DNA from: a virus
DNA length: 22,413 bases
Reading direction: 5' to 3' (one strand)
Virus record (IMG/VR): IMGVR_UViG_3300028423_000374
Location: 1-22,413 of that record
Part shown: piece after piece, positions 2,884 to 17,315 of the stretch
Layout: the number at the start of each line of letters is the position of its first letter
Position numbering within the stretch: the first letter of the stretch is position 1
Position numbers and translations under genes: made by a program
Notes under the pieces: model-generated
What the model saw: the letters and a program-made list of their open reading frames with translations, nothing else
What the model was told of the DNA's origin: nothing
The model's database searches: none

Positions 2884-3569
2884 TGACAGAAATGGAGCGA
2901 GTAGGCTTATGGAACACTACTGCTGGTAAACATTGTGGCGATAGTAATGGCGAAGATGAATTGATGCGTTCACAGGTACTATTTATCGCTGAGGAAATTA
3001 CAGGCACAAGCGAGTTGTACGAATCATTTCGTCGTGGTAAGGAGCATGGGTTACTGGACGGGTGTGGTGACGTACTTGTTACTGCTGCGGGTGTTTTGCA
3101 CCTAATTGGGCATGATTCCTTTAAGCGATTACCTGCTGAGAACGATACGAGCGATAAGGATATTATGGAGGTCATTGACGAACTCTATTTCCTCGGATTA
3201 TCACTCAAAGAAGATCCGCTCAGGCTTGACCCAGTTTCCGTTGCAAATGCTTGTATCCAATATGTATGCGACATTCTTCATATCAAAGGTTATGACCCTG
3301 AGGCTGTGCTGGAGATTGTTAACGACAGTAACTTTAGTAAGTTCTGTAATAGCGCAGAAGAAGCTAAGGCTAGTGTACGAGCGTATATGTCTAAGAAGCG
3401 TTACAAGAAGGTTAATTACAAGAAAGTAGGTAAATACCGAATCGTATTTGGTGATGACGTTGTGAATAATACTATGGCTAAGACATTGAAGAGTATTCAT
3501 TTTAAAGAACCTTGTTTCTTAGATATGATTAAAGAAGTTAACCCTGAATTATTGGAGGGTAAATTATAA
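2883..3569 (+). CDS. MazG/HisE-like nucleotide pyrophosphohydrolase
   Basis: A 228-residue protein that resembles phage members of the all-alpha NTP pyrophosphohydrolase superfamily (MazG, HisE, dUTPase-2). Helices with FIAEE (Glu37/Glu38), Glu44 and then LLDGCGD (Asp59, Asp63) reproduce the ExxE...D..(x)D metal-binding pattern. A second region, IVNDSNFSKFCNSAEEAKASV, followed by a Lys/Tyr-rich beta segment, is typical of the longer phage versions. These enzymes hydrolyse (d)NTPs or alarmones to monophosphates and so adjust nucleotide pools or signalling during infection; the substrate here cannot be read from sequence. GGAGG precedes ATG 2883. The gene sits near the nuclease and RNR genes, which suits a nucleotide-metabolism role. 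Confidence 0.72.
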   Translation: MTEMERVGLWNTTAGKHCGDSNGEDELMRSQVLFIAEEITGTSELYESFRRGKEHGLLDGCGDVLVTAAGVLHLIGHDSFKRLPAENDTSDKDIMEVIDELYFLGLSLKEDPLRLDPVSVANACIQYVCDILHIKGYDPEAVLEIVNDSNFSKFCNSAEEAKASVRAYMSKKRYKKVNYKKVGKYRIVFGDDVVNNTMAKTLKSIHFKEPCFLDMIKEVNPELLEGKL

Positions 3570-4183
3570 TGAATGGTAGGAGAAGGGGAATTTGTGGAGT
3601 GGGGATAAATGATGCTGATTACTTAACGAACAGGAGAGTTAAAAAGGCTGACGGAACTACTAAGGTGATCAGTTGTCCCTATTACCAAGTTTGGAGGGAT
3701 ATGCTATACAGGTGTTATTCCAAAGGGGGCAAAAATTTAACATATAAAAATTGCTGGGTTGATGAGGAGTGGTTTTATTTTTCTAACTTCAGAAAATGGA
3801 TGCTATCCCAAGACTGGGAAGATAAGTTTTTAGATAAAGATTTGTTATTTATAGGAAACAGAGTTTATTCAAAGAATCGCTGTCTTTTTATCGACAGAAG
3901 ATTAAACAATTTTTTAACAACATGTACTGAGAGGAGAGGTCAATATCCTCTTGGTGTGACATCAAAGAAGTCAAGATCTGGTTATAGAGCCTCTTGTAGC
4001 GATCCTTTTCTAGGTAAGCCGATAGTGCTTGGTTACTATGATACTACTATTGAAGCACACGAGGCTTGGCAGGAATATAAACACCATATATCCTGTGAGT
4101 TAGCAAGGGATTACTCTGACCCGCGTATCAAAGAAGCCCTGATGGACAGATATGCGCCAGATAAAGATTGGTCTAATTTTTAA
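3569..4183 (+). CDS. Free-standing HNH/AP2-type homing endonuclease
   Basis: A 204-residue protein of the phage HNH-like family. It has YYQVWRDMLYRCY, then NCWVDEEWFYFSNFRKWM, then the divergent HNH core LDKDLL..GN.VYS...CLFI...LNNF. The C-terminal ~50 residues (YPLGVTSKKSRSGYRA...LGYYDTTIEAHEAWQEYK) look like an AP2-type DNA-binding domain. Members of this family are selfish genes that nick or cut phage DNA and spread into intergenic sites. Almost all Arg codons are AGA/AGG (about two CGN), unlike the CGT-rich neighbours, which marks recent transfer. It has inserted between the MazG-like gene and the exonuclease with a TAATG junction. It could act for the nearby ORF-less introns in trans, but that is speculative. 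Confidence 0.83.
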   Translation: MNGRRRGICGVGINDADYLTNRRVKKADGTTKVISCPYYQVWRDMLYRCYSKGGKNLTYKNCWVDEEWFYFSNFRKWMLSQDWEDKFLDKDLLFIGNRVYSKNRCLFIDRRLNNFLTTCTERRGQYPLGVTSKKSRSGYRASCSDPFLGKPIVLGYYDTTIEAHEAWQEYKHHISCELARDYSDPRIKEALMDRYAPDKDWSNF

Positions 4184-5244: not shown

Positions 5245-6168
5245 TTGATTGAATTAAGGTGTATTATGGAAGCTGAAACTGGTGATGACTCTGTGACAAA
5301 ATCATACAGTCGTAAGTTTCCGCAAGAGCATATCACCAAAGAAGATTTGCGAGATTTCTTCAAACGTGCTGAGTTAGAATTTACAGGCGTTAGCCCACAA
5401 CAATCTTTCGCTAGGGCAGCTACGTGCTATTCATTTGGTGATAAAGAGTTTGCACAGCGTATTTACGACTATGCTTCTAAAGGTTGGTTTACTTTCGCTA
5501 GTCCTGTACTGACTAACGCACAGGAAGTAGAATGGCCTAACTTCGCAGAGTCAGATTTTGAGTATGCCTCTGCTTGGCTACAAGACACAATCGAACCAGA
5601 TGGTATGCCAATAAGTTGCTACCTAATAAGCATACCTGATACTAAAGAGGGGCTTGTCGAAACTAGGAAGGAAGCCTCGTGGCTATCAATGATGGGTGGT
5701 GGTGTTGGCGTGTATGCTGGGATGCGTAGTCCTGATGAGAAGTCCACAGGTGTAATGTCACACATGCGTGGTTATGATGCCGATACTTTGAGCTACAAGC
5801 AGACGGAAAATCGACGCGGTTCTATGGCGGCATATCTTGACATTGACCACCCAGAAATTATGTCATTCATTGACATGCGTAACCCTGTTGGTGGTGATCA
5901 AAACAAGAAATGCTACAACCTGAATAACGCTGTGAATGTAACGGACAACTTCATGGAAGCTGTAATTAAAGGAGAGAAATACGAATTGGTTGATCCTAAA
6001 CATGGCGCTACTGGTCGATTCTTAGATGCCCGTGAAGTATGGGAACATCTATTAGAAACTCGTTATGAAACAGGTGAGCCTTATATTATGTTTAAGGACA
6101 CGGTTAATCGTAACATTCCATCTTGGATTACTCACCCGTTATATGATGTTAGCCAATCCAACTTGTGT
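5245..6168 (+). CDS. nrdA: Ribonucleotide reductase large subunit NrdA, exon 1
   Basis: First exon (308 codons) of a class I RNR catalytic subunit, which reduces ribonucleoside diphosphates. Seen: PISCYLISIPD with the first redox-active Cys (E. coli Cys225), the MMGGGVGVYAGMRS segment, a YKQTENRRGSMAAYLDIDHPEI strand and, at the exon end, QSNLC, where Asn306 and Cys308 match E. coli Asn437 and the thiyl Cys439. Colinear reading runs into TAA directly after this Cys because a group I intron begins there. Start: TTG 5245 follows the strong site AAGGAGGT by about five bases; an in-frame ATG at 5266 with a weaker site is the alternative. The ~95-residue ATP-cone of E. coli NrdA is absent, so dATP feedback at that site is probably lost. 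Confidence 0.93.
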
Positions 6169-6398
6169 TAATTTAGCATAAGTAAAACCCATTGAAAACG
6201 GGGGAACTCTCTAGCAGACAATCCCGTGTGAAGCCTAGCAATAGGAACATGTAACGACTAGGGCGCAAGCCCGTACACTCAAGCGAGTGGAAGCGGTGGG
6301 GCTGTTTTAACAGTATGATATAGTCTGAACTGTGTGGTGACATACAGAAGTTCATAAGAGAACTGGTGTAGATTAGCGACCTACATTGAACATATTTG
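6169..6398 (+). ncRNA. Group I intron (IA2, T4 td-like), ORF-less, in nrdA
   Basis: A 230-base self-splicing intron. P1: exon CUUGUGU (6162-6168) pairs with intron GCAUAAG (6176-6182), seven pairs ending in the obligatory U·G at the 5' splice site. The core has the blocks known from T4 td: ACTCTCTAGCAGACAATCCC, AACGACTA (6253-6260), GTGGTGACATACAG and the P7/P3 strand GATATAGTCTGA (about 6317-6328), then GATTAGCGACCTACATTGAAC near the end. The last base is G (omega-G, 6398). Splicing joins ...SNLC to SEITLRT in frame and restores the NLCxE active-site motif. There is no internal endonuclease ORF, so mobility would need help in trans. Confidence 0.92.
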
Positions 6399-7331: not shown

Positions 7332-7925
7332 ATGAGTATATTTGAACAAAGCAAAGCCTATCGTCCTTTTAAGTATTCTTGGGCGGTAGACACCGAAAAG
7401 AAACATCGTATTGATATGAACTGGTCAGAGGTTAGTGTAGACCTACAGGATGATTTACGCCAGTTCTCAACAAAGGGTGGATTAGCTACTAAGAATGTTA
7501 GTCACGACTCTAATAAGAATATGTTAGAGAAGTTAATCATGTTGTTCACTGAAATGGACGTACAAGTTGGCTCTGGTTACGCCAAACTGTTGCCTCATGT
7601 TGGTAATAACGAAATCAAGACTATGTGGTTCACCTTTGCTTCTCGTGAAGTTACACACCAGCGAGGTTATGCGCTGGCTGCTGAAACCTTTGGTTATACC
7701 TCATCTGACTGGTCTGAGTTCAAGAACTACAAGGAGATGGCTGATAAGGTTGACTTACTGACAGAGGACTTAGGTGATTTATCTAAACCTTTAAACTTCT
7801 GCAAGCAATTATCAGTTGTACTACTAGGCGAAGGCATTTCATTATTCGGTGCTTTTGCCTGTTTGCTGAACTTGCGTAGATTTGGATTAATGAACGGTTT
7901 TAATACCGTCAATGAGTGGTCGCTT
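7332..7925 (+). CDS. nrdB: Ribonucleotide reductase small subunit NrdB, exon 1
   Basis: First 198 codons of the radical-generating class I subunit. Visible ligands: Asp76 (TEMD, E. coli Asp84 position), Glu106 and His109 (REVTH, E. coli Glu115/His118), radical Tyr113 four residues after that His (HQRGY, as E. coli Tyr122) and Glu167 (GEGIS, E. coli Glu204). The reading frame then reaches ...NEWSL and a TAA that lies in the intron. GAGGGG precedes ATG 7332 and the gene follows nrdA by six bases, so both subunits come from one transcript. Confidence 0.92.
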
Positions 7926-8182
7926 TAACTTTAGAGCCTTTGTGGAGTAATCTGCATAGCAAACCCATTGAATTCAGGGGAAGCCCTAACGTAAAGACGA
8001 GGGTAATCCTGAGCGAAGCCTGATAACAGGAACGTGCAACGACCAGAACGAGAGTTCGTAGAGTCAAGTGGCTCGAAGCGGTGGGAATCCTACGGGATTA
8101 TGATATGGTCTGGACTTATGTGAAAGCATAAGACGCAGGTAACGCTGCTGGCGTAGATTAACGACCTACGTTGAACTAATCG
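7926..8182 (+). ncRNA. Group I intron (IA2, T4 td-like), ORF-less, in nrdB
   Basis: A 257-base intron homologous to the one in nrdA. Shared blocks include AAACCCATTGAA, GAAGCCT..AACAGGAAC, the R-strand region AACGACCAG (8039-8047), GTCAAGTGGCTCGAAGCGGTGGG, the S strand GATATGGTCTGGAC (about 8102-8115) and TAGATTAACGACCTACGTTGAAC. Exon GCUU (7922-7925) pairs with intron GAGC (7934-7937), giving U·G at the 5' splice site; the last base is G 8182. Splicing joins WSL to KDEQEHV in frame. P1 is shorter than in the nrdA intron, so the 5' boundary is slightly less sure than the 3' one, although the reading frame supports it. No internal ORF is present. Confidence 0.9.
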
Positions 8183-14782: not shown

Positions 14783-14938
14783 ATGAACCTAACACCTGAA
14801 TATTTACTTGGCTATAAAGCCGCTAAGGATTCGTACACACTCTTGTCCGAGAATTATGAGCGTGTTGAGCAGGAAGATGTGCTGGATGAAATCTATGAGA
14901 GTTATGTACCGTATATGTTGAATGAGATGGAGGGGTAG
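14783..14938 (+). CDS. Hypothetical 51-residue helical protein
   Basis: AAGGAG (14768-14773) lies nine bases before ATG 14783. The product (starting MNLTPEYLLGYKAAKDSYTL) consists of two acidic helices. Its end (ATGGAGGGG) supplies the ribosome site of the Prs-like gene, so it is the gene directly upstream of the NAD-related pair. Function unknown. Confidence 0.68.
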   Translation: MNLTPEYLLGYKAAKDSYTLLSENYERVEQEDVLDEIYESYVPYMLNEMEG

Positions 14939-14941
14939 ATT

Positions 14942-15841
14942 ATGAGTGTTCAATTAATTGGTGATAATGATGTCATCGAAACTAAACTGATAACTTTTAG
15001 TGATGGTGGAATTAACCTGAAAATTGATACAGTTAAGGTGGTAGATGTAGAAAAATATGTATGCTTCACAATATTACCAGATACACCTGTGTGTCAGTAT
15101 GAATTAATCATTGATTTAGCCGAAGCTATTGTTGGTGAACACCTCAGCCCAAGTGCTAGGTGTGTACTGAATTTGAGCTATTTCCCCCATGCTCGTGCAG
15201 ACAGGGTTTTTGAGAAAGGTATGAGCAACCCGCTGGAAAACTTCTGTGCGAGGCTATCAACTTGTGAGGTTTTTGATAAAGTTTTAGTGAATGACTTACA
15301 TAACAGTGAAGCAGTAAATAATTTTACTTGTGGTGATATAAAAATTGTTGAAGCAAGTCAGTCAGAGTTATTAAAGACAGAAATCGGACGAAATAAACAG
15401 TTGAAAGGTTTGACACAAGACGAGTCTTTGATTATTTGCGCCCCAGATAAAGGAGCAAAGGACAAGATTAAAGATATCTCGATGATGTTAGAGCGCAACT
15501 ACATCCAACTTAATAAAGAACGTGACGTAAGTACAGGTTGGATTAAGTCTGTCACCATAGATGGGGATGAAAGCGTAGAAGGTAAGGATATCTTAATTGT
15601 AGATGATATTTGCGATGGTGGTATGACATTTATTAAGTCTGCCCAAACCTTGAAGGATTTAGGCGCTAAATCTGTTAGCTTGTATGTCACCCACGGTATT
15701 TTCTCGAAAGGACTTGACGTGTTCAATGGAGTAGTAGATAATTTGTTCTGCTATCAGATTGTAATGAATTACGTTACACGTCAACAATTAGTAAATTTCA
15801 ACAAAGGAGAACAGTATGAATCCATTAGTACAAACAGATAG
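14942..15841 (+). CDS. Prs-like pyrophosphokinase; candidate ADP-ribose pyrophosphate synthetase (NARP1 Adps)
   Basis: 299 residues with the two-domain phosphoribosyltransferase fold of PRPP synthetase. Seen: YFPHARADR (Tyr80-Arg88; canonical YF.YARQDR), IICAPDKGAKDKI, LNKERD in the catalytic flexible loop, VDDICDGGMTF (Val220-Phe230; canonical VDDMIDTGGTL) and YVTHGIFS (canonical YATHPIFS). Prs makes PRPP from ribose-5-phosphate and ATP. The phosphate-binding DTGGT loop is changed to DGGMT, so a different sugar substrate is possible. In the NARP1 pathway, Prs-like Adps pyrophosphorylates ADP-ribose for a NAMPT-like partner, and here the next gene is exactly such a partner, overlapping by 26 bases. 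Ordinary Prs supplying PRPP to NAMPT is the alternative. Confidence 0.85.
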   Translation: MSVQLIGDNDVIETKLITFSDGGINLKIDTVKVVDVEKYVCFTILPDTPVCQYELIIDLAEAIVGEHLSPSARCVLNLSYFPHARADRVFEKGMSNPLENFCARLSTCEVFDKVLVNDLHNSEAVNNFTCGDIKIVEASQSELLKTEIGRNKQLKGLTQDESLIICAPDKGAKDKIKDISMMLERNYIQLNKERDVSTGWIKSVTIDGDESVEGKDILIVDDICDGGMTFIKSAQTLKDLGAKSVSLYVTHGIFSKGLDVFNGVVDNLFCYQIVMNYVTRQQLVNFNKGEQYESISTNR

Positions 15842-17315
15842 TTACAAACTTTCACACAAAGGTTTTATGAATGAAGGTACGCAGGTTATTTATTCAAACC
15901 TAACGCCTCGTAGTAGTAAGCACCTACCTATCCCAGAAGAAGATTATAACGGTAAAGTTGTTGTATATGGGCTACAACACACTATTATTGACTTTCTGAT
16001 CAATGATATGAATGAAAATTTTTTCAATGTTGATGAAGATGTTGCTGTAGGTTATTTAGGTCGTTTCTTTGATGCTTACTTGGGTAAAGGTAGTGTTGGT
16101 ACAGAACATTTCCGTGAGCTTCATCAACTGGGTTACTTACCTGTTGAAATTAAAGCATTACCAGAAGGCACTTTATCACCAATTAAAGTTCCGATGTATA
16201 CTATTAAGAATACAGATGAGCGTTTTGCGTGGTTGACTAATTACTTGGAAACTGTGATGAGTTGTGAAACTTGGAAGTCATCTACTGTAGCCACGCTTAT
16301 TTACCATTATCGTAAGATGGTTAATGACTGGGCTATTAAGACAACAGGCTCAACAGCAGGAACAGAATTTCAAGTACATGACTTCTGTTTTCGTGGGATG
16401 GCTAACCGTTTTGATGCAGCTAAATCAGGCAGTGCATTCCTATTATCAAGTAACGGCACAGACAATGTTCCTGCCGTTCAGTTTGTCGAGGATTATTACA
16501 AAACAAGTTGGGCTGATGAGTTTATTGCTACAAGTGTTCCTGCTAGTGAGCATAGCTTAGCGTCTACAGGTACAGCAGTGGACGGAGAGCTTGCTACGAT
16601 TAAACGGTGGATCACCGAATCATATCCTACTGGTATCGTCAGCGTAATCAGCGATACATTTGACTTCTGGCAAGTTATTACTGAATATGCGTCAGAGTTA
16701 AAGCGGGACATTCTTAATCGTCAGCCTAATGGATTAGGTTTAGCTAAGGTAGTATTTCGTCCTGATTCTGGCAACCCTGATGATATTATATGTGGTGATC
16801 CAAATGCACCAGAAGGAAGCCCACAGAGTAAAGGTGCGGTTGAATGTTTGTGGGAAACCTTTGGTGGAACTACAACCGAACAAGGTTATCGTGTACTGCA
16901 CGAACGAGTAGGACTAATCTATGGTGATAGTATGACTTATCCTCTTATCAAAGAAATCTGCGAACGACTAGCCGCTAAAGGTTTTGCGACAACTAATATT
17001 GTCTTTGGTATTGGTAGTTATACTATGACATACATGACCCGTGATACACTAGGTATGGCTGTTAAGGCTACTGCTGCTAAGGTTAATGGTGAGTGGTATG
17101 AGCTTTTCAAAGACCCTATCACTGATGATGGTACTAAGAAATCAGCCAAAGGTTTGTTGCGTGTAGATTACAACGAACAGGGTAGTATTACTTTATACGA
17201 CCAACAAACCGAGGAACAGGAGCAACAAGGTTTACTTGAAACTGTGTTCTTAAATGGTGAACTGGTTAAAGAGTGTAGTTTCACTGAAATTCGCAATAAG
17301 ATTTGGGGAGAATAA
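15816..17315 (+). CDS. NAMPT-like nicotinamide transferase; candidate NARP1 Namat (NadV-like)
   Basis: 499 residues, full NAMPT length. Seen: TDSYKLSH at the N terminus, VHDFCFRGMANR (human HDFGYRG), SVPASEHS with His246 (human catalytic His247), VISDTFDFW, FRPDSGNP (Arg315, Asp317; human Arg311, Asp313), GLIYGDSM, FGIGSY.. and FKDPITDD. Classical NadV/NAMPT joins nicotinamide to PRPP, giving NMN. The NARP1 enzyme Namat joins nicotinamide to ADP-ribose pyrophosphate and gives NAD+ in one step. No NMN adenylyltransferase is visible in the window, which fits NARP1 or use of a host enzyme. AAAGGAG lies a few bases before ATG 15816, inside the end of the Prs-like gene, ensuring coupled translation. 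Confidence 0.88.
   Translation: MNPLVQTDSYKLSHKGFMNEGTQVIYSNLTPRSSKHLPIPEEDYNGKVVVYGLQHTIIDFLINDMNENFFNVDEDVAVGYLGRFFDAYLGKGSVGTEHFRELHQLGYLPVEIKALPEGTLSPIKVPMYTIKNTDERFAWLTNYLETVMSCETWKSSTVATLIYHYRKMVNDWAIKTTGSTAGTEFQVHDFCFRGMANRFDAAKSGSAFLLSSNGTDNVPAVQFVEDYYKTSWADEFIATSVPASEHSLASTGTAVDGELATIKRWITESYPTGIVSVISDTFDFWQVITEYASELKRDILNRQPNGLGLAKVVFRPDSGNPDDIICGDPNAPEGSPQSKGAVECLWETFGGTTTEQGYRVLHERVGLIYGDSMTYPLIKEICERLAAKGFATTNIVFGIGSYTMTYMTRDTLGMAVKATAAKVNGEWYELFKDPITDDGTKKSAKGLLRVDYNEQGSITLYDQQTEEQEQQGLLETVFLNGELVKECSFTEIRNKIWGE

Follow-up and report, generated by a model that had tools for sequence, protein, structure and literature searches.

A 22,413-base virus record, hereafter the window, very probably carries a NARP1 operon that would rebuild NAD+, judging from sequence comparison, predicted structures and analogy with characterised phage systems. 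The first gene, adps (14942..15841; both genes, with their overlap, ribosome-binding sites and motif codons, are on the + strand), encodes a predicted ADP-ribose pyrophosphate synthetase of 299 aa with a Prs fold, and the second, namat (15816..17315), encodes a predicted nicotinamide ADP-ribose transferase of 499 aa with a Nampt fold. The pair is a divergent example of the known NARP1 system and not a new kind of system.

Adjacent Prs-like and Nampt-like genes, by which NARP1 is recognised, are present in the window. Both genes begin with ATG, and a strong ribosome-binding site lies just upstream of each start: GGAGGGG at approximately 14930..14937 for adps and AAAGGAG at 15804..15810, within adps, for namat. 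The original prediction had described a Prs-like gene whose end overlaps a full-length NAMPT-like gene by 26 bases; both open reading frames are exactly as it gave them, and the overlap spans 15816..15841. This overlap is not a choice of annotation, because later Met codons, if taken as the namat start, would drop the invariant residues Asp8, Tyr10 and Lys11. Because the genes overlap and the namat ribosome-binding site is located inside adps, the arrangement suggests that expression of the two is translationally coupled. A 51-aa open reading frame at 14783-14938 ends just upstream of adps and is tightly packed against it, as in a single operon.

By analogy with the systems studied to date, we infer both the enzyme activities of the pair and its anti-defence role. 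Adps would transfer the pyrophosphate of ATP to ADP-ribose, yielding ADPR-pyrophosphate (ADPR-PP), which Namat would join to nicotinamide to form NAD+ directly. Within Namat, Tyr402, Tyr406 and Lys35/His36 are predicted to grip the adenine, while the conserved core residues Asp216, His246, Arg315 and Asp317 would perform Nampt chemistry. Bacterial NADase defences (TIR, SIR2 and SEFIR effectors) release ADP-ribose and nicotinamide, so that the phage could restore NAD+ without blocking the defence itself. An alternative that concerns role and not chemistry, and is compatible with the proposed enzyme steps, is that the pair mainly serves metabolism, supplying extra NAD+ for DNA replication together with the nrdA and nrdB genes of the window. 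Its position in a region of replication and nucleotide metabolism fits such a role, as does the finding that bacterial adps-namat pairs adjoin the NAD regulator NrtR, which suggests housekeeping use in bacteria. We nevertheless consider this unlikely, given that phage NARP1 pairs have been tied to defences that deplete NAD or act through NAD-derived signals, and that NrsAB, the NARP1 pair of Vibrio phage ICP1, is a fitness burden to the phage in the absence of the defence (PMC11559045, PMC13232231, PMC12774641). When ICP1 infects V. cholerae that carries Nezha, NrsAB increases NAD+ (PMC11559045).

By sequence, the first protein is remote from true, housekeeping Prs. It matches PHROG 619 (ribose-phosphate pyrophosphokinase) at 1.9e-64, but scores 102.7 bits against the NCBIfam Prs model, missing the cut-off of 113, and its best PDB Prs match reaches 57 bits. 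The predicted structure (pLDDT 88) has the Prs fold, with Z of 22 to Prs structures. As originally predicted, the substrate loop is changed: alignment places DDICDGGMTF (codons 221-230, 15602..15631) opposite DDMIDTGGTL of E. coli Prs, and the D-T-G-G-T that forms the ribose-5-phosphate loop of Prs is absent, with D-G-G-M-T in its place. This loop agrees with those of Adps from the Escherichia phage Bas63 (JohannRWettstein; DDICDGGRTF) and from DyoEdafos (DDICDGGGTF), less closely with that of ICP1 (DDICDGAASF), and not with the housekeeping Prs loops of E. coli and Acinetobacter. It is supportive and not definitive, because the proven Adps of the Bacillus phage SPbetaL1 has a divergent loop, DDLSSFGGTF. 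A careful tree, read without its deeper Adps/Prs branch order, unites the window protein with those of Rheinheimera phage Barba19A, Alteromonas and Vibrio phages and ICP1 NrsA in one clade (100/98). Compared with Adps on one side and true Prs on the other, the window protein thus resembles Adps in its loop and clusters with ICP1 NrsA, the closest experimentally studied Adps (36-40% identical).

NCBIfam, Pfam and PHROGs all assign the second gene to the Nampt family, with matches that, like that of the first protein to PHROG 619, lie far beyond chance: PHROG 448 (2.9e-181), NCBIfam PRK09198 (3e-153) and, in the PDB, the Namat chains 9w5x/9w5w (1e-135). Such family names fail to separate Nampt, which converts PRPP to NMN, from Namat, which converts ADPR-PP to NAD+, and most genes of this kind are still annotated as nicotinate or nicotinamide phosphoribosyltransferase. 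The solved structure of SPbetaL1 Namat with NAD+ defined a selectivity clamp (Lan et al. 2026, PMC12774641), composed of a helix, GSX.X.X.TRD, whose positions 3 and 7 hold aromatics that stack on the adenine, and a loop that bears either Arg or a Lys/Tyr with a stacking residue directly after it (PMC12774641). Mapped on that structure, the window Namat has the helix GSYTMTYMTRD (codons 400-410, 17013..17045), which supplies Tyr402 and Tyr406, and Lys35-His36 at the loop position (codons 35-36, 15918..15923), where SPbetaL1 has Arg40; the proven Bas63 enzyme has Tyr, Tyr and Lys-Trp. Lys35-His36 agrees with the published form of the loop, and by alignment His36 is a plausible stacking residue. 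Among the sequences compared, Met is uncommon at motif position 5, as is His as the stacking residue of the loop, and this variant clamp is a test of the extent to which the published signature is required.

Beyond the clamp loop, the window Namat fits the SPbetaL1 contact map at D8, Y10, F190, R193, D216, A243, H246, R315, D317, G370, D371, G400, S401, Y402, Y406, T408, R409 and D410. Contact residues that change from SPbetaL1 to the window are S190 to C191, A362 to S372, F392 to Y402 and R40 to K35; the position of C191 is occupied by Ala in the proven Bas63 enzyme. The Nampt catalytic core is retained, including the phospho-acceptor His (H246) and the nicotinamide- and ribose-binding residues F190, R193, D216, R315 and D317. 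An AlphaFold model (pLDDT 92.6) found as its best PDB matches the two Namat crystal structures 9w5x/9w5w (Z 48.5/48.4; 1.4 A over 479 residues), ahead of Haemophilus ducreyi NadV (HdNadV; Z 45.8) and human NAMPT (Z 42.8). In the Namat tree, the window protein falls in the clade of characterised Namats (100/99), apart from the GG-type Nampts.

Clade membership alone is no proof of Namat activity, because HdNadV (plasmid pNAD1; PDB 9ke8) lies inside the Namat clade, yet has no clamp. This protein has the same fold as the window Namat and is 44% identical to it, but its motif reads GAQTYQRNTRD, with Q/R at the clamp positions, and no adps gene was found in the flanks read. The clamp is likewise lacking from the GG-type phage Nampts of L042, L053, L054 and L055, the last of which adjoins a NadM adenylyltransferase gene. 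An Adps-type loop alone is no proof either, because viral contig L042 has one beside its clampless Nampt, and we rejected both clade and loop as sole markers. Namat and Nampt are therefore not separable by clade; since it is the residues that carry the information, clamp residues should serve for annotation.

Ordinary nicotinamide salvage, by a PRPP synthetase and an NMN-making NadV/Nampt with a host or phage NMN adenylyltransferase completing NAD+, would accommodate the database names of the genes (PRPP synthetase and Nampt types), the crystallisation of HdNadV, a Nampt, with NMN, and an adenylyltransferase elsewhere in a genome of which the record is a 22-kb fragment, but we regard it as improbable, because the window Namat carries an aromatic clamp, absent from HdNadV and GG-type Nampts, and its partner, only distantly similar to true Prs, has an Adps loop. 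The clamp itself indicates added and not exclusive use of ADPR-PP, because in vitro the SPbetaL1 Namat forms NMN from PRPP as well (PMC12774641), a capacity that salvage could draw upon. The original preference for NARP1 over plain NMN salvage is thus backed by the Namat clamp and structure match together with the Adps loop and clade. It had also cited the lack of a visible NMN adenylyltransferase; indeed none occurs among the window open reading frames of 60 aa or more that we scanned, an argument of little weight given that the record is a 22-kb fragment.

The pNAD1 NadV of H. ducreyi (L154), within the clade and without both clamp aromatics, is consistent with reversion of a Namat to a plain Nampt once separated from adps. 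In viral contigs L042-L044, a clampless GG-type Nampt is accompanied by an Adps-type gene (DDICDGGMTF) and a gene for a macro domain; either the transferase of a NARP1 pair has been exchanged, or the Adps-like enzyme in fact produces PRPP.

The order adps-namat is common to the window, SPbetaL1, Bas63 and Barba19A. SPbetaL1, whose Namat is 47% identical to that of the window by structural alignment, also has the same fold, catalytic core and clamp architecture, and differs in its Adps loop and in its clamp-loop Arg. Bas63 resembles the window in its Adps loop, the Lys plus aromatic of its clamp loop and its two clamp-helix tyrosines, but identity is only 40% for Namat and 27% for Adps, its Namat has 593 aa and its genes do not overlap. 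The nearest relatives are an uncultured viral contig, L014 (50% Adps, 70% Namat), and Barba19A (38% Adps, 62% Namat), which has a macro-domain gene directly upstream of adps-namat, unlike the window. Over a dozen further viral loci likewise have a macro-domain gene near NARP1. In ICP1 2018_Mat_002 (L047), namat has an in-frame stop and adps is seemingly truncated, which fits the reported cost of NrsAB without defence.

The two genes of the window have different closest relatives, and the pair therefore appears, from the trees, to be reassorted. Its nearest Namats are those of L014 (70%), Barba19A (62%) and LAh_6 (53%), which group together with it at 100/99, whereas the Namat of ICP1 belongs to a different branch. 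Constraining the window to L014, Barba19A and LAh_6 was rejected in the Adps tree (p-AU 6e-60) and constraining it to the ICP1-type group was rejected in the Namat tree (p-AU 0.01), values that overstate the case because the groups were picked after the trees had been viewed. The halves of NARP1 may, tentatively and with the odds somewhat against it, be exchangeable modules, the window pairing an ICP1-type Adps with a Namat of another branch and L042 pairing an Adps with a clampless Nampt. If so, the specificity of Adps would evolve separately from the transferase, the two having free ADPR-PP as their common currency. Genes for homing-type (HNH or related) endonucleases occur between adps and namat in three loci (L051, 4827-5618; L052, 4827-5360; L015, 6579-7271), and a window open reading frame at 3569-4183 is related to the L015 endonuclease (39%).

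Transferases found through Namat alone were paired with an adps gene in nine of ten viral loci. A scan of 84,980 species gave a lower bound of more than 570 bacterial loci, of which we analysed the best 80 (L074-L153; 45-55% identical to the window Namat). Among these best 80, the aromatic clamp was present in all, an adps-like gene lay within 3 kb in 73, and the fetched flanks of 71 contained an NrtR-like gene; when a phage NadM served as query, none of the 80 yielded an adenylyltransferase domain. NrtR is an ADP-ribose-responsive repressor. Seven NrtR-like open reading frames, six of them from the 80 loci, were checked with Pfam and have Nudix and NrtR winged-helix domains. An apparent counter-example, an Acinetobacter homologue whose neighbour is annotated as an NMN adenylyltransferase/ADPR pyrophosphatase and which would have placed an enzyme of Namat type in an NMN pathway, was rejected, as Pfam identifies that neighbour as NrtR (Nudix plus NrtR winged helix). 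As a lead only, these loci suggest that bacterial NrtR-adps-namat is an ADP-ribose-induced, ADP-ribose-consuming NAD+ operon; none of the papers searched mentions NrtR together with NARP1. Clamp-bearing bacterial pairs look widespread, occurring in Acinetobacter, Marinomonas, Citrobacter, Klebsiella, Achromobacter and Bacteroidota. One record filed as an Acinetobacter phage (L049, CAKLQF020000015.1) looks like bacterial chromosome at this locus, and its NrtR gene bears the annotation NMN adenylyltransferase/ADPR pyrophosphatase.

A megablast search of 50,697 phage records with the window as query gave no match, and the pair extends NARP1 by a divergent member whose phage lineage is without close matches in the phage DNA searched. 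The scanned open reading frames include an exonuclease, an endonuclease, a DNA polymerase exonuclease subunit, split nrdA and nrdB, a glutaredoxin and a Dam-like methylase, together with many small unknown genes. No Nudix gene was found among them, and the queries used detected no macro, RyR-type (RyDEP) or NrtR gene in the window. A short group I intron interrupts nrdB at 7891-8132 (80.4 bits), and another short one probably interrupts nrdA at 6115-6347 (49.2 bits against a family cut-off of 50; E 7e-11).
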